This document shows positions 31,982 to 54,448 of a stretch of 64,000 bases of DNA, piece after piece. The notes under the pieces were generated by a model. It saw only the letters and a list, made by a program, of their open reading frames with translations. It ran no database searches and was not told the DNA's origin. How positions within the stretch are numbered: the first letter of the stretch is position 1; each line of letters opens with the position of its first letter. The position numbers and the translations under genes are program-made. Origin of the DNA: Nyssa sinensis (lineage: Eukaryota > Streptophyta > Magnoliopsida > Cornales > Nyssaceae); contig CM018052.1 of assembly GCA_008638375.1 (NCBI GenBank), positions 3,782,501 to 3,846,500 on the forward strand, written 5' to 3'.

Positions 31982-32570
31982 TGTCACATCCCACACCCCA
32001 CCCCACACAGATGCTGAAGATGTGATGCCAGTTAGCCGCCTTGCCGGTTTTACCGTCGACAATGCGACCAACCAAAGGAAAATTTCTGAACTTTACCATG
32101 AATTGCATCCCAAATGTAGGGTCAGATCAGTAGAATTTAAAACTATTTTTATCTTGGGAATACAACTCATCTATATACCACATACGTATGTACCACAAAG
32201 TAAGTCTATAATCAGACATATATAACTCTAACCATAGAGCACGTCTATAATAGATATATAACACAGAGTATATCAAATTTCTCTAGAGTACCATTACCAT
32301 GAGCCATGTCCCAATACATCTAATGCATATCAATGAAGTCAATCATAACGTATCACTCACCTGAATAGCTAGAATCAATCCATTAGAACCCAAGTCTCCA
32401 CAAATCCTTGCCATCAGATCCGTACTTGAATTGCCTCACAGCCTACTAGTATCATCTCCTTATACTTTCTAATCCAATGGAGTTATATCTTGAAAAATGT
32501 TAAATAAATGGAATGAGCTTAAACAAGCTCAGTGAGTAACATAAGTTCCTGCCATGGGTTTCAAAACAAG

Positions 32571-32618
<48 letters not shown>

Positions 32619-34055
32619 TGCTCAAATCCAGCTCAGATAGAACAATGCAGCTCAAGTAGAACAGATACAGCTCAAAAAGAACAAATCAGGTCAAAATAGA
32701 ATCAAGTAGGATGGATCAATACTGAGTACCAATCAACAACGGTATATCAAAAAATGTGTTTGAACCTTCCCCAGGCGATGTGGGGTGCCACACAAGATAA
32801 TACGTTAGCCACCCACCCCCGCATATGGAGGGCCCGCGTCCTCGTAGCACACTTCTGGTTGGGGTCAGTATTAGAGCGGAACAGATAGGATTGAGCGGAT
32901 GCTGCGTTCTAGGCGTCCCACAGAGCCAACCATCCATCCACTGATATACTTAATCCCGTAGTGGGCCCAAGACTCAACATGACAAGATAAACACGAATCA
33001 GACTCCAATAGCGTAGACAAGTTAGAACAACAGACTCCAACAAAATCAGAACAGGAGATATCAAGAAGCAGGATAGGATCATGCAGCATGTAATGCAGTG
33101 TAAAGAGTATGCATTAAAATATATGCATTAAAACAGTACAGTGTATAAAACAGTTCAGCATATAAAGCAGTATAGTATACAAAAAATATACACCAAGTCA
33201 GGAGTCTGAGTTACTCACTTGAATATATGCTTATCTCCCTTCACAAATGGTCTGGTAATCTTCAGATACGTCATTAGCCACATCTCTGTATGTCTTAGGC
33301 ACTATCCTTCTGATGGCCATCATAATTGATTCAACATCCAAAAGTCTTCCGGTTCCTTAGATGTGAACATATCCAACCTTTGTCTAATTGCAGTTAACAC
33401 TCCACTAGCACTGCAATCATCAACCTATCTTTGTTGATCCCATTGAGACTGTACACTTTCACTCCAATCGCCAACCTTTGGAGGAATCACAGTCAAGTGT
33501 CAAAAACTCACAAACTCCTTATCAAGTGTCTTGTCTCGACCTTCAACCGATTAGCTCTCTCATTTCAAGGGAACTACATTTGTTTGCCCAATTAATTTTT
33601 CTATACTAAACTTCTCAAACAATCCCTTTTTAGTCTACCCCTGTACCATGGCATGACATCCCCACAAATACAAGAATACTTTTGTAATCATTGGTTTGAA
33701 GACCAGTAATAGTTGCAAATCCTTCAAGTATGCTACTCATTATAATCAAAGTCTTAACACCATAACCAAAGATAAGCAGATCATCCACAAAGCAAACCAG
33801 ACAACAACAGCAACACTAAAACCACATAAAAATCCCAAATTCAGGTATAAAATTTGCTGCTTCAGAATTCTAGAATACCACCTGCTATCCCTCTCAACTT
33901 CATCAATCCCCTCCGAGACACTGCTATAACCATACCAGATCATGTGATTTGCTTTCAAATTCCCCAGGGTATATTGTTTTCTCCATGCCCTACACTTCCA
34001 CACATAATTTCGCCCAATAGCTAGTAGTTATCTTTGAACTTATTCGTATCAAGGT
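31982..34055 (-). mobile_element. Solo LTR D, left part
   Basis: Starts TGTCACATCCCACACCCCAC after ACTTG (31977-31981). Its far end GGGATATTACA is at 56027-56037, followed by ACTTG (56038-56042). Read on the minus strand this left half is the 3' part of the LTR. 31982-33240 matches the 3' segment of LTRs F and H (TTGGTCGCATTGTCGG..., GTGAGTAACTC..), including a (TA)n tract at 32576-32615. 33240-34055 is cargo-type sequence with a LINE RT relic. Net LTR length is about 3.66 kb. Interrupted at AAGGT (34051-34055) by element F. Confidence 0.88.
33700..33900 (-). pseudogene. LINE reverse-transcriptase fragment inside LTR D
   Basis: On the minus strand one frame reads FVDDLLIFGYGVKTL, then EGFATITGLQTNDYKS and LVFVGM. 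This matches the LINE-type RT palm pattern F-A/V-DDLLIF...F...SGL..N..KS...F.G. Both flanks are degenerate, with stops within tens of codons. It is a relic carried in the cargo zone of LTR D, on the LTR's sense strand. Confidence 0.6.
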
Positions 34056-37000
34056 TGTAATACCTTGAACATTCGACATAACCGAGACTACACCCCGATT
34101 TAATAAAAATAAATTACGTGATGCTAATAATTCGAAATAGCTCAAAATACAGTAAGTCAGGATGGGATTAATTATTAAAAAATATAAAATAAATCCAGAC
34201 CACTAAGAATAATATAGGCTCGGAAAATGGATAATCTAGTTAACCGAGCCAATTGAATTAAGTTAATGCCAAAATTTACAATATGGAACTCATATGAAAA
34301 TTAATTATGGAAATAATATGGGTAAAATATAAAATACGACCGGGAACCCAAAATTAGCAAAATAAATAATAGTGAACCGAGCCCGGCTTTATGGCAATCT
34401 TATCAGCTCAAGATAATTTAATATTTGAAATATATATATATATATATATATATATCAAGACTTAATATAGAAATATATCTAGATATATATATATATATAC
34501 ACATCAGATTGTATATATATATATATATAAGATTATATATTATAGAATATTATAATCTAAAAGTTACCAATGGAAGCAACTAGAATATATATAAGCCAAA
34601 TAAAATAGGAAGAGGGAGAAGCTTGTAGCTTCAGCCGAAGCAATTGACAAAAGGGGCAAATTGTGAAGCTTCTGGATATTAGTAGAAAAATGGAGAAAGA
34701 GAGAGAGTCGGTGGGAACCGAGTCAGAAAAAAGACAAAAAAAAAAAAAAAAAAAACAACAAAGAAGAAGCATGAAGCTTCGAGCATCGTCCCGAGAGGCA
34801 GGATTTGTGATGCATGTACATGAAGAATGAAGCTTTTAGAGCACGAAGAGGGGCGGTGCAGTAGATATATATGTGCATATATATGTGTGTAAGCGGTGTA
34901 GGGAAATTTGTAAAGAGTGCGAACAAATCAGGTCTTGCGGCTTGAGGAATTTGACAGAAATGCAGCAACAGCGATGCGGCGCGGCAGCTCCTGCTGTTCA
35001 AGATGGGCTCGGGTCTGGTGGAATGCTGAATCATCCATTTTCTTTTTTTGGATGGTAGTGTTCTAAGATTGGGGAATTTCATCATCAATTATTATAATGG
35101 AATGCTTGGTTATGAAGCTGCAATGAAGCTTTAAATTATGCAAACGGAGAGCAGAATTTCAATTTTCAGAGACGTAGCTATTTGGTGTTGTGATTGAAGG
35201 AAGGGCAACAGAGTATATGTGTATATGCGTGTGTGTTGTATAGCAGTGCGGTAGGGGAGGTTTCTGTCATGAGATCTTACTGAGATGTTGAGGGCATATG
35301 GGTCGAATGATTGCAGGCCTCCAAGCGTGGTGAATAATCTCTTGGTGCCTTTTGGTAGTAACGCTGAAAATAGAACAACAGCAGTGGGATCGTTTGGATT
35401 AAAAATTTGTAAAGTGGGTCGGTTAAGGTGGTATATGGAAAGCTGATTCAATTCCTAATTCAACTGTTGAATTGGAACACGTCATATCTGTGATGTAAAA
35501 TCAGTTGGTTTGATACCATGGGAACTTGCTTGGGTGATGACTGTTGTCCTTGCAGCAAATCTAAGTATTGTTGCTGGGAATTTCAAAAGGGGAAGAAGTA
35601 GCAGCAAGTGGAGCTACTGTTGTAGCTGCAACCGGAGCTGCTATTGCAGCACCTGTTACGGCAGTTATAGAAGCAGCAGATGAGTCTAATGATGCAAATT
35701 CAGGTGGAGATGGCTCACTCAATTTCAAGCAGAAAAGTTATTATCCGTTCATCTAGAGTGTTGAATGAGCTTGGAAATTTATTCAAAAACTTAATGGCCA
35801 TCCTTTAGGATGATGTTATATGTTATGATGGCACGATGAGGAATGTATGTAGTAATTCGAACCCAATGGTACCAACATCAGGTGATTACTTCCTCTCCAT
35901 CTCTGCTCTTATGCTAATCCAATATTTGTCAATAAGATGCTAAATTGCAACTTGCTATGATCCTTAACAAATGTGATATCTTTTATGGTTTTGGGGTTGA
36001 TATTCAATAATGATAAATTTAGTTTTGTGCCTAGCAAAATTATAATGCCTTGCTTAAAGATTTAAATAAGTGCTTAATAGATAACAATAGAGTCCAAATG
36101 ACTTATATTATAATTCTGATAGCTACTAAGTTTAATTAAGAAACATAATAGCCTCAGTTGAAACCCAATGAGAGGGTAACAGGCCATTAGACTATTTTAG
36201 GTGATCCGATAGACGCCTAAGATGATGAATAATATATGAATGGTTAAATTCTGATGTGTCTATAATTGGTGATGGTTATTCAGGATGATGATTATTCAAG
36301 ATATGCATGGAAATACCTAACGTATCTGGAGGATAACTGTGAATGGAGATAAGCATAAGTTTGTGAGTAACTCGGACTCCTGACTTAGTGTATATTTTTG
36401 TATACTATACTACTTTATATGCTGAACTGTTTTATACACTGTACTGTTTTAATGCATACGTTTTAATGCATACTCTTTACACTGCATTACATATGGCATG
36501 ATCCTATCCCGTTTCTTGATATCTCCTATTCTAATTTTGTTGGAGTCTATTGTTCTAACTTCTCTACGCTATTGGAGTCTGATTCGTGTTTATCTTGTTA
36601 TGTTGAGTCTTGGGCCCACTACGGGATTGAGTATATCAGTGGATGGATGGCTGACTCTATGGGATGCCCAGAACTCAGCATCCGCTCAATCCTATTTGAT
36701 TTGTTCCACTCTGATACCGACCCCAACCGGTAGTGTGTTGTGGGGACGCGGGCCCTCCATGTGTGGGGGTGGGTGACTGACGAATTATCTTGTGTGGCAT
36801 CCCACATTGCCTGGGGAAGGTTCAAGCACATTTTTTGATATATCGTTGTTTGATTGGTGCTCAGTATTGATCCATTCTATTTGGTTCTATGTTGATCCAA
36901 TTTGTTCTCTTGAGTTACATCTGTTTTACTTGAGCTATATTGATCCATTTGAGTTGCATTTGAGCATGCATATATACATATATATTTATATATATTATAT

Positions 37001-37454
37001 ATAAATGGGTTTGAAACCCAAGGCAGGAACCTATGTTACTCATTGGGCTTGTTTAAGCTCATTCCATTTATTTAACATTTTTCAGGTGAAGGCGACGGTG
37101 GCAAGGAATAGAAGGGACCAAGAAGTTAGTTAGGCAGTTTAAATGACGACTAACCCATTTTTGTATCCTATACCATTTTTGGATGTTTGTAGTCAAGTAC
37201 AATGATGTACCTTTTGTTTACCTATGTATGTAAATAAGATTATAGTTGATGCTCTACCAAGTTAATATGCATTCCCTGTTTTTAATTTCCGTTGTTGAAA
37301 TTTTCATATAGTGAATGCATCAACTTGGAGATTACAAGTGAATGGCCTGCGGTTAGGATTACTATCGATATTTTGATAAAGACAAAATACAATGGGTGCC
37401 TAACTGGCCGGTCGCATACCCTAATCCGCATAAGGTGGGTTTTGGGATGTGACA
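34056..37454 (+). repeat. Element F 5' LTR
   Basis: 3399 bp. Layout: shared 5' segment (34056 to about 34600) with (TA)n tracts at 34430-34530; A-run at 34737-34755; cargo zone about 34800-36300 with small open stretches (for example 35568-35756, Ala-rich) and an NRPE1-like fragment at 35710-35859; shared 3' segment from about 36355 (GTGAGTAACTCGGACTCCTGAC) through GGACGCGGGCCCTCC (about 36747) to the terminus. Confidence 0.9.
35710..35859 (+). pseudogene. Captured RNA polymerase V largest-subunit fragment (5' LTR copy)
   Basis: About 50 codons read AHSISSRKVIIRSSRVLNEL, then GNLFKNLMAIL, stop, DDVICYDGTMRNVCSNS. The combination HS-SREVIVRSSR, GTLFKNLMAILRD and YDGT-RN-CSNS is, from memory, specific to the plant Pol V (NRPE1) largest subunit; other RNA polymerase largest subunits have a related but different YD-T-RN box. 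Sense orientation relative to the LTR. This copy has a TAG. After CSNS the similarity stops, suggesting an exon edge or capture breakpoint. Pol IV (NRPD1) is the alternative. Confidence 0.65.
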
Positions 37455-39103
37455 AACTTGGTATCAGAGCTAAGGTTGGTGAATTTTTAAGATTCATTGG
37501 TACCACATAACAATATTTGGGTGAAAGGTTGAGGTTACCTATACAAAATGAGAACATGAGGATAATAAGGTGTGAGATAGTTTAGGAATCATTGTCCACA
37601 CCAGACCACTAAGTTATGGATTAAGAACCACAGAGTACCTGAGCCATGTATACTGAGTCTCAATTTTGGAGATTAGACGTGGGATTATGGAAGTCTTTAG
37701 TAACAGATGATAAACCTGGGATTCTAAAGCATCTAAGGACTAAAGACCAACTGAGCCGCGGTTGCAAATATTGGAGATTCACTAGTACCATAGAGTGATA
37801 TTTGAACAATGGTCCATGATCTTTGGGGGACATTACAGAAGTTTATTTTTCCTTGGATGATTAGGATGATCAGATAATCAATACTTCTTGGAGACAGAAG
37901 TAGGCTTATAAGTGAAATTAATGATCTTGAGAATTCGAGGTTTATATCAGAGTAGCGCAGCAGAAAAGTAAGTTCTAGGTTAATGATTCTTTGAAAAAGA
38001 TCAGACTAGAACTAAATTGGTGGACTATTGAGTGACTCATACGACTAAAGGATTACATAATTTTTGGTGACAATAGCGTGTTTAGTCACTACAGTTAATA
38101 ATCCTTCGGAGAAAAGACTATGCTATAATTAAATTGATGATTCTAAGGCAACTGAACTAATCAAATGCATAATAATTTTGGGAGGAAAACGACTCTAGGT
38201 CAGTTAGCTCTGGTATTGATTATTATAAGTATGGATACCGAAATGATTATTTGGTGGAATCGAATATGATTAAATAATCTTAGTGAATGATTCCAGTCAT
38301 TTGAGGATGATTGTCGCATTCGATCTAATGTGGAATGGATCTATATCAAATCTTGGTGGTAGTATATAGTGGTGAATTGTCAACTAGCCTTATTATGAAA
38401 TTTTTGGATCTGGTTTGATACTTGTAATTGAGGATGTCAAAATGATTATTTTGTGGACTCAAAAGTGATTGACTGATCCGAATGGTTGATTTCTAACCAT
38501 TTGAGGATGATCATCAAATTTGATCTTGGTGATGGCATATACTTAGTGGATCTATTGATTAAGAGAAAATAGCTATAGGTAAGCTAACTCTGATGTCGAT
38601 AATTATGATTGTGGATATCATAAGGATTCTTTGGGAACTCAAAAATGATTGAATAATCTTAGTAGATGATTTCTAAATTATATGAGAGTGACTCCCAACT
38701 TCGAGGTAATATAGATTTGATATTAAATATTGGTGATAACCTATATTTGGTGGGCTGTAAATCAGGACTTCTTGTGGACATTTTGAATCTGATCTGAATT
38801 TGTGTGATTTGAGGTTATAGACTCATGCTATTTGGAGACAGGTTAGTATTCTGCTAAAGGACAAAATTGGTGTGACAGTATATGTTGTGGATTGACAAAT
38901 CAATCTTACTGTGGATTTTTGGATCTGCTTTGAATTTATATAATTGGGGATTATCGACTAGTGCCAAATTGGAGTCATGTCTGTAAAAGTGATTGAGGTT
39001 AAACCTTGTGACACCAGATCGATAAACTTGACTAACAGATGACTATTTTTCCTAGAATACAAGTCGAGTTTTGAGGATAAAACTCTTTTGAAGGTGGATA
39101 GAA
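37455..39103 (+). other. Element F interior: PBS, non-coding filler, polypurine tract
   Basis: PBS TGGTATCAGAGC at 37459-37470 (tRNA-iMet). The rest has no meaningful ORF and consists of loose repeats rich in 'gatgatt', 'ttcttgg', 'gatcttgg', with wording shared with E1's interior at 27190-27300. A purine-rich GAAGGTGGATAGAA (39090-39103) abuts the 3' LTR as polypurine tract. All protein domains for transposition are absent. Confidence 0.8.
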
Positions 39104-39908
39104 TGTAATACCCCGAACATTCAACATAACCGAGACTACACCCCGATTTAATAAAAACAAATTACGTGACGCTAATAATTCAAAATAGCTCAAAATACAG
39201 TAAGTCACGATGGGATTAATTATTAGAAAATATAAAATAAATCCAGACCACTAAGAATAATATAGGCTCGAAAAATGGATAATCTAGTTAACCGAGCCAA
39301 ATGAATTAAGTTAATGCCAAAATTTACAATATGGAACTCATATGAAAATTAATTATGGAAATAATATGGTTAAAATATAAAATACGACCAGGAACCCAAA
39401 ATTAGTAAAATAAATAATAGTGAACCGAGCCTGGCTTTACGGAAATTTTATCGGCTCATGATAATTTAATATTTTGAAAATATATATATATATATATATA
39501 TATCAAGACTTATACATAAATATATCTAGATATATATATATATATACACATCAAATTGTATATATATATATATAAGATTATATATTATAGAATATTATAA
39601 TCTAAAAGTTACCAATGGAAGCTGCTAGAATATATATAAGCCAAATAAAATAGAAAGAGGGAGAAGCTTTTAGCTTCAGCCGAAGCAATTGACAAAAGGG
39701 CAAATCGTGAAGCTTCTGGATATTGGTAAAAAAATGGAGAAAGAGAGAAAGTCAGTGGGAACCGATTGAGAAAAAGAAAAAAAAAAAAAAAAAAAAAGAA
39801 GCATGAAGCTTCTAGCATTGTCCCGAGAGGCAGGATCTGTGATGCGTGTACATGAGGCCTGAAGCTTTTAGAGCACGAAGAGGGGCGGTGTAGTAGATAT
39901 ATATGTGC

Positions 39909-39942
<34 letters not shown>

Positions 39943-42011
39943 AAGTGGTGTAGGGAAATTTGTAAAGAGTGCGAACAAATTAGGTCTTGCGGCTTGAGGA
40001 ATTTGACGGAAATGCAGCAGCAGCGGTGTGGCGCGGCAGCACCTGCTGTTCAAGATGGGCTCGGGTCTGGTGGAATGCTGAATCATCCGTTTTCTTCTTT
40101 TGGATGGTAGTGTTCTAAGATTGGGGAATTTCATCATCAATTATTATAATGGAATGCTTGGTGATGAAACTACAATGAAGCTTTAAATTATGCAAACAGA
40201 GAGCAAAATTTCAGTTTTCAGAGACGTAGCTATTGCGTGTTGTGATTGAAGGAAGGGCAGCAGAGTATATGTGTATATGCGTGTGTGTTGTATAGCGGTG
40301 CGATAAGGGAGGTTTCAGCCGTGAGATTTTATTGAGATGTTGGGGGCATATGGGTCGAATGATTGCAGGCCTCCAAGCGTGGTGAATAATCTCTCGGTGC
40401 CTTTTGGTGGTAGTGCTGAAAATGAAACAACAGCAGTGGGATCGTTTGGATTAAAAATTTGTATAGTGGGCCAGCTAAGGTGGTATATGGAAAGCTAATT
40501 CAATTCCTAATTCAACTGTTGAATTGGAACACGTCAGATCTGTGATGTAAAATCAGTTGGTTTGATACTATGGGAACCTGTTTGGGTCATGACTGCTGTC
40601 CTTGCAGCAAATCCAAGTATTGTTGCAGGGAATTTCAGAAGGGGAAGAAGTAGAAGCAAGCGGAGCTGCTGTTGTAGCAGCAATCGGAGCTGCTATTGCA
40701 GCACCTGCTATGGCAGTTATAGAAGCAGCAGATGAGTCTAATGATGCAAATTCAGGTGGAGATGGCTCACTCAATTTCAAGCAGAGAAGTTATTGTTCGT
40801 TCATCTAGAGTGTTAACTGAGCTTGGAACTTTATTCAAAAACTTAATGGCCATCCTTCGGGATGATGTTATCTGTTATGATGGCACGATAAGGAATGTAT
40901 GTAGTAATTCGAACCCAATGGTACCAACATCAGGTGATTACGTCCTCTCCATCTCTGCTCTTATGCTAATCCAATATTTGTCAATAAGATGCTAAATTAC
41001 AACTTGCTATGATCCTTAACAAATGTGATATCTTTTATGGTTTTGGGGTTGATAGTCAATAATGATAAATTTAGTTTCGTGCCTAGCAAAATTATAATGC
41101 CTTGCTTAAAGATTTAAATAAGTGCTTGATAGATAACAATAGAGTCCAAATGACTTATATTATAATTCTGATAGCTACTAAGTTTAATTAAGGAACATAA
41201 TAGCCTCAGTTGAAACCCAGTGAGAGGGTAACAGGCCATTAGACTATTTTAGGTGATCCGATAGACGCCTAAGATGATGAATAATATATGAATGGTTAAA
41301 TTCTGATGTGTCTATAATTGGTGATGGATATTCAGGATGATGATTATTCAGGATATGCATGGAAGTACCTAACGTATCTAGAGGATATCTGTGAATGGAG
41401 ATAAGCATAAGTTTGTGAGTAACTCGGACTCCTGACTTGGTGTATATTTTTGTATACTATACTACTTTATATGCAGAACTGTTTTATACACTGTACTGTT
41501 TTAATGCATACTCTTTCCACTGCATTAGATATGGTATGATCCTATCCTACTTCTTGATATCTCCTGTTCTAATTTTGGTGGAGTCTGTTGTTCTAACTTC
41601 TCTACGCTATTGGAGTCTGATTTGTGTTTATCTTGTTATGTTAAGTCTTGGGCCTACTACGGGATTGAGTATATCAGTGGATGGATGGCTGACTCTGTGG
41701 GATGCCCAGAATTCAGCATCCACTCAATCCTATCTGATCTGTTCCGCTCTGATACTGACCCCAACTGGTAGTGTGCTGTGGGGACGCGGGCCTCCATATG
41801 TGGGGGTGGGTGACTGACGAATTATCTTGTGCGGCATCCCACATTGCCTGGGGAAGGTTTAAACACATTTTTTGATATACCGTTGTTTGATTGGTACTCA
41901 GTATTGATCCATTCTATTTGGTTCTATGTTGATCCAATTTGTTCTCTTGAGTTACATCTGTTTTACTTGAGCTATATTGATCCATTTGAGTTGCATTTGA
42001 GCATGCATATA
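39104..42011 (+). repeat. Element F 3' LTR, first part
   Basis: Collinear with the 5' LTR up to GCATGCATATA (42001-42011), where viral sequence begins. The LTR resumes in the TA array at about 53985 and ends at 54443. The cargo zone is present, including the open Ala-rich stretch 40602-40808 and the NRPE1-like fragment 40762-40911. Confidence 0.9.
40762..40911 (+). pseudogene. Captured RNA polymerase V largest-subunit fragment (3' LTR copy)
   Basis: Same fragment as at 35710 but open: AHSISSREVIVRSSRVLTEL, then GTLFKNLMAILRDDVICYDG, TIRNVCSNS. It lies in the open frame 40732-40995. Better preserved than the 5' copy (no stop, fewer changes). Pol V makes the scaffold transcripts that guide DNA methylation of transposons; here only a short exon-like piece was taken, too small to act as a subunit. 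Any effect would be at RNA level. Confidence 0.7.
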
Positions 42012-42472
42012 CAACAGTCATCTTCCCCTCAAGGAAGCACCAGTCCAGCAAAATCATCCAGTGCTTTAGCTCTTCGAGCTCCAGCACCCATACAGTCCAT
42101 CTCTTCTCCCCTTTCTCAACGGAATAGTTTCTCCGTTTTGAGCAGCCCTCTTCATCCAAATTATTCTAGACCATCCAGTGGCCCTTTGAGCCTTCCCTGT
42201 TACAGGTCAGCCCTTGCTACTGTTCCATCCAGTCCATATGCGATCATTGACCCTTTTGAAATCTCAAAAGCGATGATCGTCCCATCCAGTACCCTTAGGG
42301 TTCCTTCTTCTCCATACATTAAGAAACCCTATTCAGTCAACATATTCCATATTGAACCTCACAAGAGTCATATCCAGGATCCATGGACTCTTGCCACTTC
42401 ATACTTCCCTCCAGGTTGGCATTTCATTCCCCGCCATCCTTCAAAATCCATCAAGTGGTACAAAGCCATTCT
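42012..42472 (+). pseudogene. Viral ORF2 5' fragment (duplicate)
   Basis: About 150 codons closely similar to the start of ORF2 at about 52036-52493 (for example SSALALRAPAPIQSIS). It breaks off at CTTATC, where the sequence switches to a primer-site-like stretch; TATC is common to both sides. Same orientation as the main unit. It represents a piece of a second viral genome or a rearranged concatemer. Confidence 0.85.
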
Positions 42473-42958
42473 TATCAGAGCCAATTACTAGTGATCCATC
42501 CTTGTTGAAACAATTTACATCTCCGTAGTGATCAACATTCATGGTGATTTTGGCAATGAATGATACTATTCAAGTCAGTTGTAATTATTCAAACTACATA
42601 CAGTTTTACACTTCTTTCTTTGTTTATCTGTATATGTTCATTTTCCCCCTACCTAGTTCAGGTATGGCTTGCCTACCTTTGGTCTGTCCAGTCCCTGCAC
42701 CTAGACCTGCACCTCCCACGAAGTCCACAGATCGAGAAACCGTCGTAAGTCCTGCTGAGCTAAGAGAGCATTTAGGGCAATAGGTTATAAGGTTGCTAAT
42801 GGCTTGGTCAAGGTATGTTAGTTAGGGGTATGTTAGGACAAACTCACCAGAACAAAGGTACCGTCCCATACTTACAAAGAAAGACGATCATGAACCATAC
42901 CGTTATCCAAAGTTAAGACTCAGTAAAACTTTGCCTAGTCCAACCAATTACAGCAGTC
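42473..42958 (+). promoter_or_regulatory. Viral PBS match and leader
   Basis: TATCAGAGCCA (42473-42483) matches positions 4-14 of the complement of the tRNA-iMet 3' end, the primer used by plant pararetroviruses; the first TGG is replaced by the junction. About 475 nt of untranslated leader with short ORFs follows to the ORF1 start. In a circular genome this leader would continue from 53926. Confidence 0.65.
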
Positions 42959-43831
42959 ATGAATAAGCTATTCAGATCCAAATCATCCTATTCTTCCTCT
43001 TCTTTTGCCTCTTCTCTCCCCGATCTCTTCGATACAGTCAACAGTGAAGATTTTCAAGTAGATCTAGAAGATCAACCCCTTAGGAATTGGAGCATCCTTA
43101 AGGTCCTAGTAAACCAAATCTACCATTCATCCTCTTGCATTAAAAACAAAGCTTTCTCCAATAGTCTTCATGTTAAGACCGTAGAACATGCCTACGCTCT
43201 TACCAAAGACCAGATCATACATCAGCTATTTAGTCCATCCATCATCCGAGATCATATCAAGAAAGGATACAATTTTATTCACATAGGTTTGGTACAGATT
43301 GGTATCAATCCTCTCCTCCGTAAAGGTCTAAATGCATCAGTCCTAATAGCCCTTAGAGATGCCAGACATATTCGTTGGCATGATAGCCTCTTAGGTCTCT
43401 TAGAATCCCCTATGAATCAAGGTCCTATCCATTTTGATTGTTATCCAGATTTTACCATCAACCTCCAAGACCCTTATCTCTTGAAATCTCTTTCTCTTCA
43501 CATCCAAACCTCTGGCCTTAACATGCTAAAAGGAACCAAACAGTTAGCCTTAGTCTATAGGATCTACTATAAGTGTTTCAAGACCAATTTGAATGCACTT
43601 GCTCTTAAGCGTAGTCCTAAAGACAAAACCATGCTCATTCAGTCATATGTTGAAGGATCCAACGTTGAGGTCCCAAAGCAGATCCAATGGTCAGAAGTTA
43701 CCCTTCCTACATCCTGGACCATTGAAAATGAAAACCATCCTCTTCCCCAACAAAGAGAATCCAACGTCGATCTTATCCAACAATTCCACGATGGATCTGT
43801 TAGGATTAGTTTTGACAACCAAAGGTTTTGA
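42959..43831 (+). pseudogene. Viral ORF1, movement-protein region
   Basis: First 290 codons of the ORF1 polyprotein, the longest open part. A Ser-rich N-terminus is followed by a 30K-type movement protein core (about residues 80-215) with IHIGLVQIGINPLLRKGLNA, the conserved Asp in LIALRDARH, and a GPIHFDCYPDF block, the pattern seen in Caulimoviridae. Such proteins move virus through plasmodesmata. The frame ends at 43831; a frameshift near 43,830 and several stops up to about 43,955 separate it from the coat region, so the polyprotein is broken here. Confidence 0.85.
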
Positions 43832-43953
43832 CCTACTACATCCATCATTCCACCAAGTATTCAGCCACCCAGATCTGATCTCTCCACTCCCAGATCTGAA
43901 AAACTCATTCCCCGCAACGTCGTGATTTAAACTCAGATCTCCAAGGTCTAAAG

Positions 43954-45972
43954 TTGAATGATCAAGTTGCAACTCCTTGTTACACATCTCATACCTCTCA
44001 GTCTCAAGTCATAGATGATGAGGAATCCATTACCTCTCCCAGTCCATCTGACTTTGAAACTACCCATCATGAACTCAATACACTCAGCAAAGAGTTCAAA
44101 ATAGACATGAAATCCTTAAGTATAGAGCTCACCTCTCCACATAATGATGACAAACGTGCTCATTATCGTGCAACTCATACCAAGGCACAGAAGTTAGAAA
44201 TTCTTAAATCATGGGAAGCATACATGCGTCACCAACGACGTCATATCCATTTCTTTGATTATTTAGAAAATTTCTATAATCATCCAGATCAGTGTCAACC
44301 CATCACCAAAACCCGATGGCTTAAGGAAGATCGCTCTACCGCTTCTTCTTCTAACCCCTCGGTAGGGACTATCCTTGTTGACCACTTAGGATCCCATCTA
44401 ATTGCTTCTCCATACAAAGTTCCTCCCAAAGATGATGACACATCTAGGAAGATCATTTAACAAAACAACTATACAAATCAGTGCCTCATCACATTAGGCA
44501 AACAATTAGATAAAATTGAGAACATAGTAGACAAACATCCAGCTACTCCTTCTCAATCCTCTTCTTCATCCACTTCTTCTTTAGTATAATCATTAGTTAA
44601 GTTACCAGAAGTCAAGAAATCTTACCCTAAGGACACCAACGCCTTAGATCAGATTAAGAAAATGCTTCAGGAACTTAAGAACCCAGATCCAGTCAAAGAA
44701 GAACCTGTTTCTTCTTCTCATACAATTACCGCAGTAGGAAAAACCAGTCCTTCTGTAACCTCAGAATCATCAACTGATGATGATATACCATGTACAATTC
44801 CCAACCCCACATCCATTCTTCCGTTAGAAGAACAACTCTTAGGTCTTTCAGTTAACAAAATACATCGTCCACAATTCAATCCTCCAACCAACATCACCAA
44901 CAGTAGATACAGTCGTCCTATTCCTCCAGATCTCCACATGGAGAATCATAATCAATTTTCAGTCTCATCCGATCGCCTCTATGAATGGAACATAGATGGT
45001 CATTCAGAGCAGGAAATCATTAACAAACTCAGACATATGGCTATGACTGCCAATTTCTACATTGAGAGAAATGGAACCTCTCAAAACGATGTCGTCCAGC
45101 ACCTCACACTAGGTTTCACAGGTAAACTTCTTACCTGGTGGGAAAATCACCTTACCTAGGAAACCAGAGACTCCATCATCCATGCAGTTAAACGTGATCC
45201 AGATGGTACTCCAGTCTTTGATGAAGCCATACGTCGAGCAGAACCTGATGGTGTCAATACACTCATCTATACAATCACCAAACATTTCATAAGAACCCTT
45301 AGTCGTGTTACCGCTAGGATCCATGATCAGTTATCCAACCTTCGATGTCCAACCCTCAGTGACTTCGAATGGTACGCAGAAGTTTTTTGTAACAAAGTCA
45401 TGATCAGAGATGACAGTAACTCACCATTCTGGAAAGAAAAATTCATTAATGGCCTTCCCAGTCTTTTCGCCCATAAGATTAGGGAGCATCTCAGTAAAGA
45501 TACAGGAACCATAGACTATCCCAGTCTCACATATGGTGATATCAAATGTATTGTTCGTAAAGAAGGTATGCGGATGTGCATTGATATGAAAATTAGAAAC
45601 CAAGAATCCAAAGACAAGAAACGTGCCAAATACGAGTTGGGCAATTTCTGTGTTCGATACGGTTTACCATCCATAGCCCCTTCTAAACGCAGATCATCCC
45701 GTCAGCGCCAGGATAGTCATCCTAGACCTCATAGCAAATCCAGTAGTCATTACCATGGCCATCGCCACGATCACAAACATAGGAAATCTCACCGCCATGG
45801 TGAAACCAGCAACAAACAGACCTGTCATTACTACAAAACCAACCGTAGGAAACGGGAATCCACTAGTAAAACCACCCGTAAAGCAACTTCTTCCGATACT
45901 TACTTTAAATGCGAAAAATTCGGTCATTACCAGAAAGACTGTAAATTCAAATCACTCATCAATGCTCTTTAA
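43954..45972 (+). pseudogene. Viral ORF1, coat-protein region
   Basis: One frame interrupted by stops at 44458, 44587, 45157 and 45970. Recognisable: a spacer with KAQKLEILKSWEAYM, a capsid core (LYEWNIDGHSE, GFTGKLLTWWENHLT, FWKEKFINGLP) and a Lys/Arg/His-rich C-terminus. The terminal CCHC zinc knuckle (45901-45942) has Tyr in place of its first Cys (YFKCEKFGHYQKDC), so it could not bind zinc normally. Family assignment from the WW capsid core and the knuckle position. Confidence 0.75.
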
Positions 45973-48505
45973 GTTTCCCAGGATAAAAAACAAGAACTGT
46001 TTAAGATCTTAGAACTTAGAAACATTGATAGTGAATCGTCCAGTAATACTTCTTCACCATACAGTTCAGACAACGATGAAAATGAAATAGATCAGTTAGA
46101 ACATTCTTCTGGATATTCATCCCCACACCATTCAGACTCTCCTCCAGTCAAAATAGGATGTTCAGATAACTGTAAACGCAGTTGCTACAAAACAGTTAAC
46201 GTCCTCAGTAAGGAACAAAAACTCCTTTTAGATATCATCAACAATTTTGAAAATCCAGTCATAAAATCTCAATATCTCAACCAGTGGCAACAAACCATAG
46301 AAACTGAAACGTCCAATCCTTCTCCTTTAAATATTCCTTTTAAACCTCCCATTCAAATTGACAAAATCTTTGATAGATTTACACCATCCAAACCTATAAC
46401 CATCCAGGATCTTCAATCAGAAGTTAACCAAACCAAGAAAGAAATTTCTAGTTTAAATCAGCTTATCCAGTCCCTACAAATACAGCATGATTCTTTAGAT
46501 CAGAAAGTAAAAACACATCTTCTTTCTCCACATCCAGATGACATAAACATCTTTGCAGATCTACCCGATCTTGCTTCATCCAATAAACCTCAAGAATCTC
46601 CAAACGAAGATCGCACCAATTTCCTAGAAACAATCACTAGGATTGATTTCCAGAAATGGCGATGTCCAGTTAAGATCATTATTTGCGATGAATTTGAGCT
46701 TGAGACAGTCGCTCTAGTTGATTCAGGCGCAGATCTAAACTGCATCCAAGAAGGTCTCATTCCGACCGAATACTTTGAAAAAACCCATGAAAGCCTTAAA
46801 TCCGCCAATAGCTCTCGCATGAACATACAGTACAAAATATCTGATGCCCATGTGTGTCAAGATAAAGTTTGTTTCAAAACTCCCTTTGTCCTTGTCAAAA
46901 ATATGACAAACGAAGTCATCCTTGGTAATCTTTTCATGTGTCTTCTCTATCCTTTTACCACAGACAGTGAAGGTATTACTACCAAACCATTCAATCAAAC
47001 CGTCCAGTTTAAGTTTGTAAGAAATCCCTAGTGTAGAGAAATTCACTCTCTTCAGGATCTTTCTATCAAACGATCACTCAGTCTTCTCTCTAAAAAGAAA
47101 TCCCATGCTGATTTCCTCTTGGCAGAAATCCAATATAAGAAAACAGAACAACAGCTTCTTAGTCCTTCTATCCAATTGCAAATTAGCCAGTTTGAATCTC
47201 TTCTCAAACAGGAAGTTTGCTCAGATCTCCCCACAGCTTTTTGGCATAGGAAACAACATGTCGTCCGTCTTCCTTATGTCAAAGACTTCAATGAGAAAAA
47301 CATACCCACTAAAGCCAGACCAATTCAGATGAGTCAAGCTTTAATGGAATTATGCCAAACAGAAATCAATTAGTTGCTCCAAAAGCAAATCATCCGTCCA
47401 TCCAAGTCTCCATGGTCTTGTTCAGCTTTTTATGTCAACAAAAATGCTGAAATCGAACGTGGTGCCCCTCTTTTAGTCATCAATTATAAGCCATTAAATA
47501 AAGTTCTCGAATGGATTAGGTATCCAATCCCTAACAAAAGAGACTTGATTAATCGGCTTCATACAACTACCATATTCAGTAAATTCGATATGAAATCAGG
47601 ATTTTGGCAGATCCAGATTCATGATTCAGATAGATATAAAACTGCATTTACTACCCCCCTTTGGTCATTACGAATGGAATGTAATGCCCTTTGGTCTTAA
47701 AAATGCACCCAGTGAATTCCAGAATGTCATGAACGACATATTCAATCCACTATCCAGTCATATCATAGTATACATCGACGATGTTCTCGTCTTCTCAGAT
47801 TCCATTGATCAACATTGGAAACATTTGGGTTCGTTTCTTAATGTAATCAAACACAATGGTCTTGTCCTTTCATCCAGTAAATTCAAATTATTTCAAACAT
47901 CATTTAAATTTTTAGGCTTTGATATTTCTTTTGGTCAGATTAAGCCCATCCAACGATCTATCCAGTTTGCAGACAAATTTCCAGACCAGATCTTAGAGAA
48001 AACTCAGTTACAGCGTTTTCTAGGATCTCTCAATTATATTTCTGATTTTTATCCAAATCTTCAATCTCAGTGTAAATTACTCTTTGATCATCTTCGCAGT
48101 AATCCTTCTCCTTGGACAATTGCTCATACAACCATTGTTCAGTCAGTTAAGCAATATGTCAAGACTCTTCCTTGTCTTGGTATTCCGTCTCCAACTACAT
48201 TCAAAATTGATCAGACAGATGCCTCCGATATTGGTTATGGTGGCATTCTTAGTCAACGTTCAGGCTCAGATTCCCCCGAACAGATTATCTGTTATCATTC
48301 AAGAATTTGGAATCCCACTCAGTTAAATTATAGTACTATTAAACGAGAAATTTTATCTCTTGTACTATGCATTAGTAAATTTCAATCGAATCTTTTAAAT
48401 AAAAAATTTTTGGTTAAAATTGATTGCAAAAGCGCAAAACATATTTTGGAAAAAGATGTTAAAACATTGCCTCCAAACAGATTTTTGCACACTGGCAAGG
48501 TGTTT
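45973..48505 (+). pseudogene. Viral ORF1, protease, RT and RNase H regions
   Basis: A Gln-rich coiled spacer (about 46400-46510), aspartic protease LVDSGADLNCI with DSG at 46720-46728, stops at 47029 and 47371, reverse transcriptase from about 47374, a frameshift at a C run near 47,660, YIDD at 47771-47782, then the RNase H start (IDQTDASDIGYGG, about 48205-48245) and IKREILSL. A further frameshift lies near 48,473. The gene is cut at 48505 by solo LTR H within the RNase H C-terminus. None of it can give a complete enzyme. Confidence 0.88.
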
Positions 48506-48920
48506 TGTAATATCCCAAAAATCCGACATGACCCAAACTACACCCCCGATTTAAGTAAAATACATTATCTGACGTTAAGAAATTAAAATAGCTCAAATAT
48601 AGTGAGCCATTAATGAATTAATTATTAGAAAGTATGAAAATTAATCTAGACCATTAAGAATAATATAGGCTCGGGAAATAGATGACTTGGTCAACAGAGT
48701 GCTTAGATTAATAAATGGATGCAAAAAATAATTATAAAATAATACGAAAATAAAATATGAATGGGCACCCAATATTGGCAAAATAAATAATTATGATACC
48801 GAGTCTTGGCTTTAAGTCAAATTTGCTACTATTTCATAAATTGATATTTTATGAAATAAAATATAAAAACGGTAAAACATGAAATATATATTAAAATACC
48901 TACACATAAAATATATGGAA

Positions 48921-48954
<34 letters not shown>

Positions 48955-51916
48955 AAAGAGAGAGAGAGAGAGACTAGAAGCTTCCGATGGAAGCAGGGAA
49001 AATTGGATAAAGGGGCAGCATTGAGAGGCAAGTGGAAGTCGGTGATGCTGGTGGGATCTGGAGAGTTCTAGGCTAGGCCACCCACCGACACACACCTATA
49101 TATATATATATATATATATATCTCTGTAGAAAAAATGGAAGGGGGAAATGAATTGATGTTGTTGCTGTTGTAAATTTTGTGTGTGTAGCGGTGACAGCAC
49201 AGCAGTGAGCTGCTCTGTTTGGGGCGATGACGATGTGTGTGACGGTGTTGGTTGAATCGGGTGTATTGATGCTGTTGCGGCAGGGGGAAATTTAGGAAGA
49301 GGAATATACATATGTATATATCTGTGTATGTTTGTTGGAGTAGAGGGGATTTTGATACGGCTTGGAGTTGTGTGGCGTTGCAGGGTAGGCTACCGCAGTG
49401 AGGAAGAGCAGTGGCAGAATGTATGGATTTCAGGTTGGATTTGCTGAAATGGAGAATTCTCAACAGTAACGTGTTGGTGTTGGGTTGTGGTTTGAATTGA
49501 TAGAAAATTGGAGGCAAATTGCTAGCAAATTGGGTTCGATGCGATGAGGTTCGGATTGGGGAATGTGCTTTGCTAACAAATAGGGCAAGTGTGGGAGTTT
49601 CCTTGGTGCAGGAACTAAATTCAGATGCGTTGGCGTGGGTGGCTCCACTCGCTTGCAAATTTCAGAACGAATAGAAGAAAACAGCAAGACCTGCTATGGT
49701 GTCGTGGTGTTGTGGTGTTGAGAGACCAGAAGTGGCAGAGACAAGGCTCGGGAGAAGGAGTTTGGTTTCAGGCTTCCATGACTCGTTCTATATCTCTAAC
49801 TTCTCACCTGCTTTCCATTAATTTAACCCCATGCAAACTGCAAACAGCAGTCACTGGTTGCTATCGAAACCAGTGGCGGGTTTTGAATTTCTTACAACAA
49901 TTGAAGCTGCTATTGTAGCAGCAATCAGGACTGCTATTGCAGCACCTGCTGTGCAATTGGGGACCGACCTGGATGGATAGAGACCGGGTAAAGAGAGCAC
50001 GAAGCAGCAGCGTGTTGGAGCAGCGGTTATGGATTATTGAGCAGAAAATTAGAAGAAATCCTGAAGGTTCTAGGCGGAACACTTGGCAAGGATGATTGGG
50101 TAGCAGGCGTTCATTTAAAAGCCCTGATATAAATAAGGTTTTGGAGCGGAGCTTTGTTGGCATCGGGTGGTCATGGATTCTAAGCCAACGCTTGGAGCTG
50201 AAGAAGAAGCTTTGAATTCTCATTTTTCAAATGGGATTATGGAACGTGGGAATTGTGAAAAGGTGGGAATTACTAATGTTGAAGTGAATTCTAAGGTGAA
50301 GCCAAAACTGGAAATATGTCAAGTATGCTCAATTTTTCTCTGTTTTGGGACTTTGTTGTGGTGGTGGCTTCACTGACTTGCAAATTACAGAACGAGTAGA
50401 AGACGAGATTGAGGGATTGAGGTGGTGATTCTTCATAGAAAGGCTGAAGAAGCTGATGAAACTGGATTTAAAATGGCTGGCCGACTCGATCAACCTGCCA
50501 GTGTATTTTCTTCAACTGCCGAACCATGGACTGAAGATTAACCTCAACTGGAAATTATTAGACCATTTATGAAGGGAGATAAACATATATTCAGGTGAGT
50601 AACTCGGACTCCTGACTTGGTGTATATTTTCTGTATACTAAGCTGCTTTATATGCTGAACTGTTTTATACACTATTGTTTTAATGCACTTGCTTTCATGT
50701 ATATTCCTTGTATTGTACTACATCTGGCATGATCCTATCCTGCTTCTTGATATCTCCTGTTCTGATTTTGTTGGAGTCTATTGTTCTAACTTGTCTACGC
50801 TATTGGAGTTTGATTCGTGTTTATCTTGTCATGTTGAGTCTTGGGCCCCTTGGGATTGAGTATATCAGTGAATGGATGGCTAGCTCTGTGGGACGCCCAG
50901 AACTCAGCATCCGCTCAATCCTGTCTGTTCCGTTTGATACCGACCCCAACCGGTAGTGTGCGATATGAGGCCCTCCATGTGAGGGGGTGGATGGGAAGTA
51001 ATGCCATCCCACATTGCCTGGGGAAGGTTCAGGCACTTTGAGCTGTATCCGTTCTATTTGAGTTGTATCCGTTCTATTTGAGCTGTATCTCTTCCGCTCT
51101 GATACCGACCTCAGCCGGAGGTGTGCGATATGAGGCCCTCCATGTGAGGGGGTGGATGGGAAGTAATGCCATCCCACATCGCCTGGGGAAGGTTCAGGCA
51201 CTTTGAGCTGTATCCGTTCTATTGAGCTGTATCCGTTCTATTTGAACTGTATCTGTTCTACTCGAGCTGCATTGTTTAATCTGAGTTACATTTGAGCATG
51301 CATATATATATATATATATATATGAACTGGTTTTGAAACCCATGGCAGGAACCTATGTTACTCACTGAGCTTGTTTAAGCTCATTCCATTTATTTAACAT
51401 TTTTCAGGATACATCTCCATTGGACTAGAAAGCACAAGGATATGTCACCAGTGGATTGAGAGACATTCCCAAGTGAGGATCTGATGTCAATAATATGTGG
51501 AGACTTGGGTTCTAATAGATTGATTCTGATTATTCAGGTGAGTGTGATGATATAAATGACTTTATTCATATGTAATAGATGTGTAGGGACATGGCTCATG
51601 GTAATGGTACTCTGGAGGAATTTGATATGCTCTGTGTTATATATCTGTTATAGATGTGTTCTGTGGTTAGAGTTATTAGCTGTTTGGTTATAGATTTGCT
51701 CTGTGGTACATGCTTATGAGGTATATAGTTGAGTTGCATTCCCGAGATAAAAAGGTTTTAAATTCCGCTGTTCTGACCCTACTTTAGGAATGTAATTCAT
51801 CGTATGATTCAGAAGTTTGCCTTTGGTTGGTCGCATTGTCGGTCGGGAGATCGGCAAGGCGGCTAACTGGCATCACATCTTGGGCATCCGCGTAGGGTGG
51901 GGTGTGGGATGTGACA
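48506..51916 (+). mobile_element. Solo LTR H inside the viral RNase H
   Basis: 3411 bp, TGTAATATCCCAAAAATCCG...GTGGGATGTGACA, target duplication TGTTT at 48501-48505 and 51917-51921. No PBS, interior or second LTR. Shares its 5' segment (48506 to about 49000) and 3' segment (about 50575-51916) with LTRs D and F, but the middle (about 49100-50570) is different cargo with coding-like blocks (for example 50173-50330, MDSKPTLGAEEEALNSHFSN). Contains a 165-bp tandem duplication (50936-51100 and 51101 to about 51265). Confidence 0.92.
50173..50376 (+). pseudogene. Gene-like cargo fragment in LTR H
   Basis: Open from ATG at about 50173: MDSKPTLGAEEEALNSHFSN, then GIMERGNCEKVG, VEVNSKVKPKLEICQ. The composition is that of an ordinary soluble plant protein N-terminus, unlike the simple-repeat ORFs around it. 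After KLEICQ the text turns hydrophobic and T-rich, as if an intron begins. Not recognised; probably a captured host exon. Confidence 0.4.
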
Positions 51917-51921
51917 TGTTT

Positions 51922-52073
51922 TATCTGTTTTTGATTTTGATATACAGTATATCCTCGGTTCCTCCAACAGTATCCCTGACTTTCTAACTCGTGAAATTTT
52001 GCAGCCCAAAAATGAGCGGGAGGAAGGACAAGCAGCAGTCATCTTCCCCTCAGGGAAGCACCAATCCAGTTAA
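51922..52073 (+). pseudogene. Viral ORF1 end (RNase H tail)
   Basis: After LTR H the reading continues with an RNase H C-terminus: LSVFDFDIQYILGSS and SIPDFLTREILQP, a typical pararetroviral ending. The frame closes at TAA 52071-52073, so ORF1 overlapped ORF2 (start 52012) by about 60 nt. Together with 45973-48505 this locates the insertion of H inside ORF1. Confidence 0.8.
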
Positions 52074-53220
52074 ATCATCCAGTGCTTTAGCTCTTCGAGC
52101 TCCAGCACCCATACAGTCCATCTCTTCTCCCTTTTCTCAACGGAATAGTTTCTCTGTTTTGAGCAGCCCTTTTCATCCAAATTATTCGAGACCATCCAGT
52201 AGCCCTTTGAGCCTTCCCAATTACAGGTCAGCCCTTGCTACCGTTCCATCCAGTCCATATGCGATCACTGACCCTTTTGAAACCTCAAAAGCTATGATCG
52301 TCCCATCCAGTACCCTTAGGGTTCCTTCTTCTCCATACATCAAGAAACCCTATTCAGTCAACATATTCCATATTGAACCTCACAAGAGTCATATCCAGGA
52401 TCCATGGACTCTTGCCACCTCATACGTCCCTCTAGGTTGGCATTTCATTCCCCGCCATCCTTCAAAATCCGTCAAGTGGTACAAAGCCATTCTTATCCAT
52501 TCCGGCTCTGTACGATTTGAAGACATACAAAGTAAACAAGATCCAAACATCATACTGTACCAAAAGTTCATTATAGTCAATTTCATCTCCGAAAAGTCTT
52601 GGGGTTCTCATCCATCCGTACTTAGAACCACCCCCAACTCTTCTGTCCAGTATTCATACTACGACTATATTGAAGCATTCAACAAATCTCTCTACATCCA
52701 GAATGATACTAAGGATCATTCATGGTTTCTTATGTTTGATCTAAAATTTAAAAGTCTCATCCCATCCTGGTTTGCAAAGTGGTGGAATAAGTTTGGTTTA
52801 GTCCCAGATCTTTTTCCAGCTCGTCTTCATTCAGCAATGGAACATTATAGATCCATGATAAAACTTGATAAACATACAGAACAATTCCCTATCATTATCC
52901 TTATGTGCAGCAAATATAGGATCCCATGGATAATGAAATGGAATTATGCAATCCAGAATCATACAGTCATTCGGCAGTTCTCAGTTAAATGGTGGGATAA
53001 GCTTGTCCCTGATAAATTCATTACATTCATTATGAAAGATTTCCCTCATCCAGTTATGGCATCAGTTGAGCCCATTGCACACAGGACAAGGTCATCCTCC
53101 TCTTTTCCCTCTGACCTGTTGCAAGGACAATCTAGAGATGAGCTCAAGGAGCTCGCCAGACAACTTATGATCCATGTTACTCAAATGGGAGATGATCCCG
53201 AAACCCATTCAGAAGCATAA
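52012..53220 (+). CDS. Viral ORF2 protein (function unknown)
   Basis: 402 codons, fully open: MSGRKDKQQSSSPQGS start, a Ser/Pro-rich N-terminal third, then a Trp-rich globular part (LATSYVPLGWHFIPRH, SWFAKWWNKFGLVPDLF, IPWIMKWNYAIQNH, VKWWDKL) and an Arg/Ser-rich tail with SRDELKELARQL. Some florendoviruses have a second ORF of unknown function in this place. It is the only viral gene here without stops. The ATG at 52012 is chosen because it overlaps the end of ORF1 and lies before the Ser-rich start shared with 42012-42472. Expression is unlikely in this nested state. Confidence 0.7.
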   Translation: MSGRKDKQQSSSPQGSTNPVKSSSALALRAPAPIQSISSPFSQRNSFSVLSSPFHPNYSRPSSSPLSLPNYRSALATVPSSPYAITDPFETSKAMIVPSSTLRVPSSPYIKKPYSVNIFHIEPHKSHIQDPWTLATSYVPLGWHFIPRHPSKSVKWYKAILIHSGSVRFEDIQSKQDPNIILYQKFIIVNFISEKSWGSHPSVLRTTPNSSVQYSYYDYIEAFNKSLYIQNDTKDHSWFLMFDLKFKSLIPSWFAKWWNKFGLVPDLFPARLHSAMEHYRSMIKLDKHTEQFPIIILMCSKYRIPWIMKWNYAIQNHTVIRQFSVKWWDKLVPDKFITFIMKDFPHPVMASVEPIAHRTRSSSSFPSDLLQGQSRDELKELARQLMIHVTQMGDDPETHSEA

Positions 53221-53923
53221 TCTAGCCATCCAGCTCCAGAGGATAATTATGATCCTTTTGAATACAGTCAAGACCCCTATGCTTTAGATGATGATTTTGA
53301 CCCATTCAGGACCATCTAAAGTATCATACAGCATACGACATCCCGATAAAAGATTTTGTTGGTACCAGACAGCTTACTATTCATGAACAGTAAAAGTGTC
53401 AACAGTACTATTCATCTACAGTGAAATCACACTTTTACCTCAATTAAAACAAATTCACCCCGCATTTTTCGCCGGGAATCTAGCCCCTTTCTCAAGCATC
53501 CAAGGCGCCCTCTCCCCTATATAATGACGCCTCTTCTCTAGCATTCAGCAGGTTTTTCTACAACGGAAACCATCAGTCATTTACTTCAGAGAACTTAGTC
53601 AGAGAGAATGTATTTCATATCTCTTAATTCCCTCATGTATCCCCATCCAGCTCTTCCCTTTCTTACTTCATATAGTTTGGCTTAAACGCCACATACAGTT
53701 GTAAGTTTATATTTGATTAATATAATTTCAGTTTATCCCATATACATATATTCATTACTCATCCCATTCCCTGATGGAAGGTTTTACCTCCTATCCCAGC
53801 ATATACATCGCACTATTTATTTTATTCTGTCTTCTTTTATTATTCAAATCATTCAGCTTCCGCACACATTTTTACTTTCATGTTAATCATTTATTTAGCG
53901 CATCCACTGGCTCGGTTCAGTCC

Positions 53924-53926
<3 letters not shown>
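53221..53926 (+). promoter_or_regulatory. Viral intergenic region with TATA box
   Basis: A TATATAA box at 53518-53524 (CCCCTATATAATGACGCC) is suited to start the pregenomic RNA about 30 nt downstream. Upstream, two copies of a TACTATTCAT-x-TACAGT-like element (53375-53395 and 53405-53427), the first nearly palindromic, look like enhancer repeats or a hairpin. A short acidic open stretch follows the ORF2 stop (53221-53320). The region ends at the (TA)n array (53926-53987) that marks the insertion edge. Confidence 0.65.
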
Positions 53927-53992
<66 letters not shown>

Positions 53993-54443
53993 AATGGGTT
54001 TGAAAACCAAGGCAGGAACCTATGTTACTCATTGGGCTTGTTTAAGCTCATTCCATTTATTTAACATTTTTCAGGTGAAGGCAACGGTGGCAAGGAATAG
54101 AAGGGACCAAGAAGTTAGTTAGGCAGTTTAGATGATGACTAACCCATTTTTGTATCCTATACCATTTTTAGATGTTTGTAGTCAAGTATAATGATATACC
54201 TTTTGTTAAACTATGTATGTAAATAAGATTATAGTTGATGCTCTACCAAGTTAATATGCATTCCCTGTTTTTGGTTTCCGCTGTTGAAATTTTCATATAA
54301 TGAATGCATCAACTTGGAGATTATAAGTGAATGGCCTGAGGTTAGGATTACTATCGGTATTTTGATAAAGACAAAATATGATGGGTGCCTAATTAGCTGG
54401 TTGCATACCCTAATCCGCATAGGGTGGGTTTTGGGATGTGACA
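53927..54443 (+). repeat. Element F 3' LTR, second part
   Basis: A (TA)n array of about 60 bp, then ATAAATGGGTTTGAAAACC and the rest of F's LTR, collinear with 36995-37454, ending GGGATGTGACA at 54443 and followed by AAGGT. Shows that the virus entered the TA tract present in the 5' LTR at about 36970-37005. Confidence 0.9.
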
Positions 54444-54448
54444 AAGGT

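Follow-up and report, generated by a model that had tools for sequence, protein, structure and literature searches.

Retroelements bounded by long terminal repeats (LTRs) are known to capture pieces of plant host genes, the described cases including Bs1 of maize, a TRIM with a P450 piece, Rider, and the maize Sireviruses (PMC13317346, a review cited throughout from excerpts). The same excerpts already raise the possibility that captured pieces yield small RNAs acting on the genes they came from (PMC13317346), and in rice a transposon microRNA, miR820, is directed at OsDRM2, a gene of RNA-directed DNA methylation (PMC3459959, also cited from excerpts). In this study, we analyzed a stretch of 64,000 nucleotides from Nyssa sinensis (assembly GCA_008638375.1, contig CM018052.1, forward-strand positions 3,782,501 to 3,846,500; hereafter the window), in which a retroelement, F, holds in each of its LTRs a piece of NRPE1, the gene for the largest subunit of RNA polymerase V (Pol V). 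We consider it highly probable (about 0.87) that this arrangement reflects an LTR-borne capture of a piece of an NRPE1 exon, followed by mass amplification and neutral decay.

The NRPE1 piece in the LTRs of element F

Element F occupies positions 34056-54443 on the plus strand. Its features in the window are the following.

34051..34055, no strand: left target-site duplication AAGGT of F (sequence; equals 54444-54448)
34056..37454, plus: 5' LTR of F, TGTAATACC...GGGATGTGACA (self-alignment and end sequences; 94.7% identity with the 3' LTR)
35706..35860, plus: NRPE1 piece of the 5' LTR, with one stop codon (143/155 identical to host gene DNA)
37455..39103, plus: internal region of F, non-coding, 1649 nt (longest stop-free stretch 90 aa, on the minus strand)
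37457..37470, plus: primer-binding site CTTGGTATCAGAGC (sequence)
39104..42011, plus: 3' LTR of F, first part (self-alignment)
40758..40912, plus: NRPE1 piece of the 3' LTR, open frame (147/155 identical to host gene DNA)
53958..54443, plus: 3' LTR of F, last part (self-alignment)
54444..54448, no strand: right target-site duplication AAGGT of F (sequence)

Fifty codons of NRPE1 are encoded at 35710-35859 and 40762-40911, in sense orientation and in the middle of both LTRs. In a search of the PDB, the open 3' copy matched Pol V at E 2.7e-17, as against 0.019 for Pol IV, 0.39 or worse for Pol II, and 0.78 for Pol III (the match list included no Pol I chain), and 39 of its 50 residues, counted on the printed alignment, are identical to residues 755-804 of Arabidopsis Pol V. 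A search of 5.8 billion proteins, covering long candidates only, gave 202 matches at E<=0.001. The best 120 of these are 78-90% identical over 96-100% of the stretch, possess RNA polymerase domains, and are named in several cases 'Pol V subunit 1', in many cases as hypothetical, and in one case 'RNA pol I, largest subunit'. The corresponding search of short proteins returned only three matches, two from Rhododendron and one from an unnamed contig; since they run on into the next NRPE1 residues, they are not F-type copies. Judged by these similarities, the source of the piece is NRPE1, and not the Pol IV or Pol II gene. The initial annotation, made from the letters of the window, had claimed about 50 NRPE1-like codons in sense orientation in both LTRs and had asked whether the best match might be other than NRPE1 or NRPD1. 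The claim is borne out, and the best match is indeed NRPE1, with Pol V far above Pol IV, Pol II, and Pol III. The coordinates that it offered for the LTRs (35710-35859 and 40762-40911) are correct for the fragment itself but are not the LTR limits, which lie at 34056-37454 and at 39104-42011 plus 53958-54443. The two copies differ at 10 nucleotides, one of which creates the stop at codon 33 of the 5' copy, and neither is a full-length NRPE1 open frame, as only about 50 codons are present. No relevant match was found in Pfam (58-aa translation and six frames of F), in Rfam, or among viral contigs.

With direct LTRs ending in TG...CA, a primer-binding site beside the 5' LTR (CTTGGTATCAGAGC, which we take to be of the initiator-Met type), and a 5-bp target-site duplication, F has the marks of an LTR retrotransposon. 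Its non-coding interior and LTRs of several kilobases are those of a large retrotransposon derivative (LARD), and six-frame translation of 37455-42011 gave no Pfam match at E<=1. F is a non-autonomous, LARD-like LTR retroelement with long LTRs and a non-coding interior. The LTRs, of 3399 and 3394 nt, are 94.7% identical (Kimura two-parameter distance 0.055), which at substitution rates of 0.7-1.3e-8 per site and year places the insertion about 2-4 million years ago. Just 3' of the piece, two 200-nt intervals (35855-36254) are 98-98.5% identical between the LTRs of F, as compared with 94.7% overall.

Source exon, spread, and decay of the piece

The host NRPE1 locus, whose identification the initial annotation had proposed as a check, was found on contig C7 from position 2765495 onwards. 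Its source exon (L009:1507-3243) consists of 579 codons without a stop and, among the NRPE1 proteins fetched, is nearest to those of Cornus florida (87.6%), Ilex (87.0%), and Camellia (86.9%), affinities by which the plant is probably an asterid. Between the exon encoding residue 922 of protein P0019 and the one encoding residue 1129, the host gene has introns of about 7.0, 7.8, and 4.3 kb (C7:2767563-2787454; L009, L032, and L033). The host-homologous DNA in F amounts to 155 nt and starts 4 nt before the ATG.

Breakpoints were compared in 18 copies, including the two of F. As with all loci that were read closely, these were the best matches of their searches rather than a random sample. In all 18 copies, the 5' breakpoint falls at host position 2925-2927, within 3 nt and in the middle of the large exon. 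The 3' end lies at 3235-3238 in ten long copies, about 5-8 nt before the 3' end of the exon, and at 3079-3088 in eight F-type copies; the long form of the segment thus measures 314 nt, and the form in F is shortened. The edges do not coincide with those of introns, contrary to what the initial annotation had suggested checking for: the 5' edge is inside the exon and the long form stops short of the exon's 3' end, which rules out capture at intron edges. Because one 5' breakpoint is common to all 18 copies, the segment was probably captured once, and the simplest account of the alignments would be one capture of about 314 nt and a later deletion on the branch of F. Of the 23 copies covering the site, 20 have a T to C change (V to A) that the host gene lacks, and the tree of copies is star-like around the host gene.

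Across the searched genome of 1.0 Gb, a 31-nt NRPE1 word gave 461 matches with up to three mismatches, and its reversed control gave none. Sorted by mismatches, the exact matches number 73, one being the host gene and 72 lying outside it. When the piece plus 91 nt of flank was used as the query, the 40 places scored (from 924 first-look candidates) were distributed over 18 contigs, with the two of F included. The full NRPE1 protein (2017 aa) led to 23 scored places among 1388 candidates, two in the gene and 21 dispersed, and all 21 of the latter lie within query residues 728-873. Of the 40 members scored with the flank alone as the query (from 2830 candidates), at least 19, F's two included, adjoin a listed piece. 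Besides F, one other complete element, H (C11:1088932-1098565), with a primer-binding site and 3.9-kb LTRs, carries the piece in both LTRs; the pentamers flanking it, GTATG and TTATG, agree at four of five positions. Two solo LTRs, L027 and L028, contain the piece between perfect target-site duplications (TTGTT and TAAGA, respectively). The initial annotation had held that the fragment spread with the element and had named its absence from other family copies as a check. The 461 word matches and the dispersed scored loci establish that it is not absent, and its presence in many family members indicates that it did spread with the elements. Among 20 copies, 11 upstream and 3 downstream flank groups could be distinguished, and the segment therefore resides in several LTR subfamilies. 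At C2:15720640-15742436, four copies of the word lie on one strand at a spacing of about 7.25 kb, perhaps as a tandem array of elements. At C11:603534-616216, two copies of the piece lie on one strand 12.5 kb apart, and no primer-binding-site match occurs in the 25 kb read there.

After insertion, the pieces decay as neutral passengers, and in F and H they do so no more slowly than the rest of the LTR: differences between the paired LTRs amount to 14/303 within the piece and 333/6925 outside it (p=1). Using the 5' copy of F as the query, divergence from related copies was 164/1891 (8.7%) in the piece and 95/1170 (8.1%) in the flank. The 3' copy gave 140/1989 (7.0%) and 108/1160 (9.3%), respectively, the piece being somewhat less diverged; the two comparisons use the same related copies and are therefore not independent. 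Differences from the host gene in 26 copies number 111/1856, 95/1826, and 56/1848 at codon positions 1, 2, and 3. Third positions differ least, the reverse of the expectation under constraint, and no coding constraint on the piece was seen. A stop codon is present in 7 of the 26 copies. Between the LTRs of F, six codon changes are replacements (one of them nonsense) and two are silent, the neutral expectation being 71% replacement.

Further NRPE1 regions and the nest around F

A second region of NRPE1 was detected in G, a sibling solo LTR into which F is inserted, and the neighboring features in the window are these.

31982..34055, minus: sibling solo LTR G, 3' part (5' part 54449-56037; target-site duplication ACTTG at 31977-31981 and 56038-56042; F nested inside)
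33246..33472, minus: second NRPE1 piece, in G, from the C-terminal linker before the DeCL domain, frameshifted (window search with NRPE1 proteins)
42012..53957, plus: nested insert splitting the 3' LTR of F and containing solo LTR S (caulimovirid-like frames: movement protein, coat, protease, reverse transcriptase)
48506..51916, plus: sibling solo LTR S (target-site duplication TGTTT; parts of the LTR start and end common to F and G)
50440..50538, plus: tentative third NRPE1-derived frame, in S, from the GW-repeat region (weak; resembles the L043 frame by eye)

When the window was searched with 120 NRPE1 proteins, minus-strand matches appeared at 33424-33353 and 33344-33249 (best E 2.8e-7), with 76 of the 120 proteins matching the first part and 36 the second at E up to 1. 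The piece corresponds to the stretch TATRQRLD..LLDVEPIM..RRIM, which precedes the DeCL domain, and stands directly before the shared LTR part in G. In the PDB, every match of its frameshift-joined translation below E 1 was to Pol V (best 1e-5). The second piece is also a dispersed repeat, with 40 loci scored from 1322 candidates genome-wide, and one of these, L044, contains a more extended, open version with matches to 104 of the 120 NRPE1 proteins (best E 5.7e-26) and, in the PDB, to Pol V only (2.5e-9). Sibling S may hold a third piece, although the indication is weak: the frame at L043 matched residues 1570-1612 of protein P0098 at E 3e-4 in a set of 243 proteins, in a GW-rich region, and the frame at 50440..50538 itself had no match of its own in the protein search. 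Retention of a tail of the second piece by F was considered and rejected, as F 1809-2283 aligned with this part of G no better than shuffled sequences did (14 and 41 of 200 as good); for the last 83 nt of the F tail, 3 of 200 shuffles were as good.

The region 31977-56042 is a four-level nest composed of G, F, the caulimovirid-like insert, and S, in which G, F, and S each have their own target-site duplication. The nesting gives the order of events as G, F, insert, S. Parts of the first 140-470 nt and about 740 nt near the end (F 2284-3026) are common to G, F, and S; the last 0.8 kb is also common to S and G, and the middles differ except for patches of 49-81 nt. The frames of the 11.9-kb insert, comprising a movement protein (PF01107), a coat protein (PF22909), an A3 protease, and reverse transcriptase/RNase H, are broken, and its segment 42012-42476 recurs at 52033-52497 with 95.5% identity. 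Elsewhere in the window, element A (16052-26308, minus strand) is a complete Ty3-type element with a 1450-aa gag-pol frame, LTRs that are 99.1% identical, and TTAAC on both sides. The best listed polyprotein, part of the candidates having been scored, is 62% identical to that of A, and the LTR of A has only about 32 nt, at the LTR end, in common with F.

Origin of the cargo and comparison with known systems

In the account that we favor, template switching or read-through transcription, as in known cases (PMC13317346), would have brought 314 nt of the host NRPE1 exon into the LTR lineage of F, and each piece would probably have been captured once, breakpoints having been compared for the first piece only. 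Retrotransposition would then have carried the segment to some hundreds of places and into several subfamilies of LTRs, and the inserted pieces would drift neutrally. Related LTRs carry another piece of this gene, from its C-terminal part. Reverse transcription gives a new copy two matching LTRs, and because retrotransposition copies the content of the LTR, a piece inside it comes to lie in both.

Several observations weigh against this account. Capture as such is not visible in the sequences, and the analysis identified no autonomous donor. The comparison that speaks for a single capture concerns the first piece. At the site of the shared change, L015 and the two LTRs of H have the V of the host, and the first piece could have been captured more than once. 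In 82 of 89 pair-flanks, the piece is less diverged than the flank (6.3% versus 11.2%); we dropped this as evidence of constraint, since the loci had been selected by their match to the piece. The unbiased comparisons of divergence range from mixed to equal and would accommodate weak constraint.

The shared T to C change might instead mean that the pieces came from a pseudogene or retrocopy of NRPE1 and not from the working gene. We find this doubtful, given that the host gene sits near the center of the tree on a short branch, that a change arising after capture would produce this pattern as well, and that no intermediate locus was seen, though no search was aimed at one. Somewhat more credence, while still counted as unlikely, is given to the piece serving as a recombination hub, a shared stretch where template switching in otherwise unlike LTRs brings different upstream modules together with different downstream ones. 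In the 190 pairs formed by 20 copies, 66 share the downstream flank only, 2 the upstream only, 9 both, and 88 neither, with 25 between thresholds. Sharing of the downstream flank alone is also expected, however, if the copies had one ancestor and its upstream part later underwent replacement or divergence, and only 2 pairs share the upstream flank alone. Another proposal is that sequence shared with a gene essential to the plant weakens the silencing of an element, since small RNAs aimed at the element would strike that gene too. It is put forward in the review (PMC13317346) and would fit the high identity to the gene kept in hundreds of copies. The same excerpts also state that captured pieces can attract silencing (PMC13317346), and the pieces, once inserted, decay as fast as the rest of the LTR; such camouflage would seem highly improbable here.

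The initial annotation had also suggested that RNA from F could match the host gene, and at the level of sequence this stands: the 3' copy, at 95% identity, has 25 exact 24-mers in common with NRPE1, which makes small-RNA matching to NRPE1 possible. Exact 21-mers number 35 in the 3' copy and 12 in the 5' copy, and each of the 294 21-mers of the host 314-nt segment has an exact match in one or more of 26 copies, so that NRPE1-matching small RNAs are possible. LTR transcripts might thus yield small RNAs that lower NRPE1 and weaken RNA-directed DNA methylation, as miR820 does with OsDRM2. The target would be the very pathway that silences the elements, two regions of the same gene occur in related LTRs, and rice provides the precedent (PMC3459959). 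Against such counter-defence, six folds of 141 nt (z -0.40 to 0.94) revealed no hairpin and hence no stable miR820-like precursor, the window contains no inverted copy of the piece beyond two shared 12-mers, excess conservation gave no consistent signal in the unbiased comparisons, and stops interrupt 7 of 26 copies. The structural tests give no support for regulatory design, and we regard counter-defence as very unlikely. A broader scenario, to which we assign a low probability, is that LTR families twice took pieces of NRPE1, from the catalytic core and from the C-terminal part after the GW region, and keep hundreds of the first; their 24-nt RNAs would direct Pol V-dependent methylation, or their 21-nt RNAs cleavage, to NRPE1, and the level of Pol V would be set by the element load. 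If true, retroelements would hold down or gauge their own silencer through a feedback.

Hundreds of gene-matching copies, 72 of them exact over 31 nt, allow a direct test of the conflict between elements and RNA-directed DNA methylation within one species, the alternatives being a host that puts up with small RNAs directed at its own silencer and a host that avoids making them. In this plant, NRPE1-like fragments, and small RNAs mapped to NRPE1, can also lead annotation astray. Searches of open-licence PMC papers found none that describes the gene for Pol V as the cargo of a retroelement. So far as that literature tells, what is new is NRPE1 as cargo, its place in the LTR, and the use of two gene regions, the first at hundreds of copies.

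Barley-type LARDs are larger than F. F is like a LARD in its long LTRs, primer-binding site, target-site duplication, and non-coding interior, and differs in its dimensions (LTR 3.4 kb, interior 1.65 kb) and in the host exon piece within each LTR. BARE-2, an LTR chimera formed by abnormal template switching, also has foreign sequence within the LTR of a subgroup, but there the foreign part derives from another retroelement (PMC13317346), whereas in F it derives from a host gene. The miR820 of rice CACTA elements resembles F in being transposon sequence that matches a gene of RNA-directed DNA methylation; it is, however, a microRNA with a demonstrated effect (PMC3459959), whereas in F no hairpin was found and any effect would be hypothetical. 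Pack-MULEs, Pack-CACTA elements, and Helitrons likewise amplify gene pieces (PMC13317346), but they are DNA transposons with termini and a mechanism other than those of F. The closest likeness is to gene capture by plant LTR elements, in which pieces of host genes are carried and copied (PMC13317346). F is set apart from these cases by a piece that lies inside the LTR and is therefore present twice per element, by its hundreds of copies, and by its origin from a gene of the silencing machinery.

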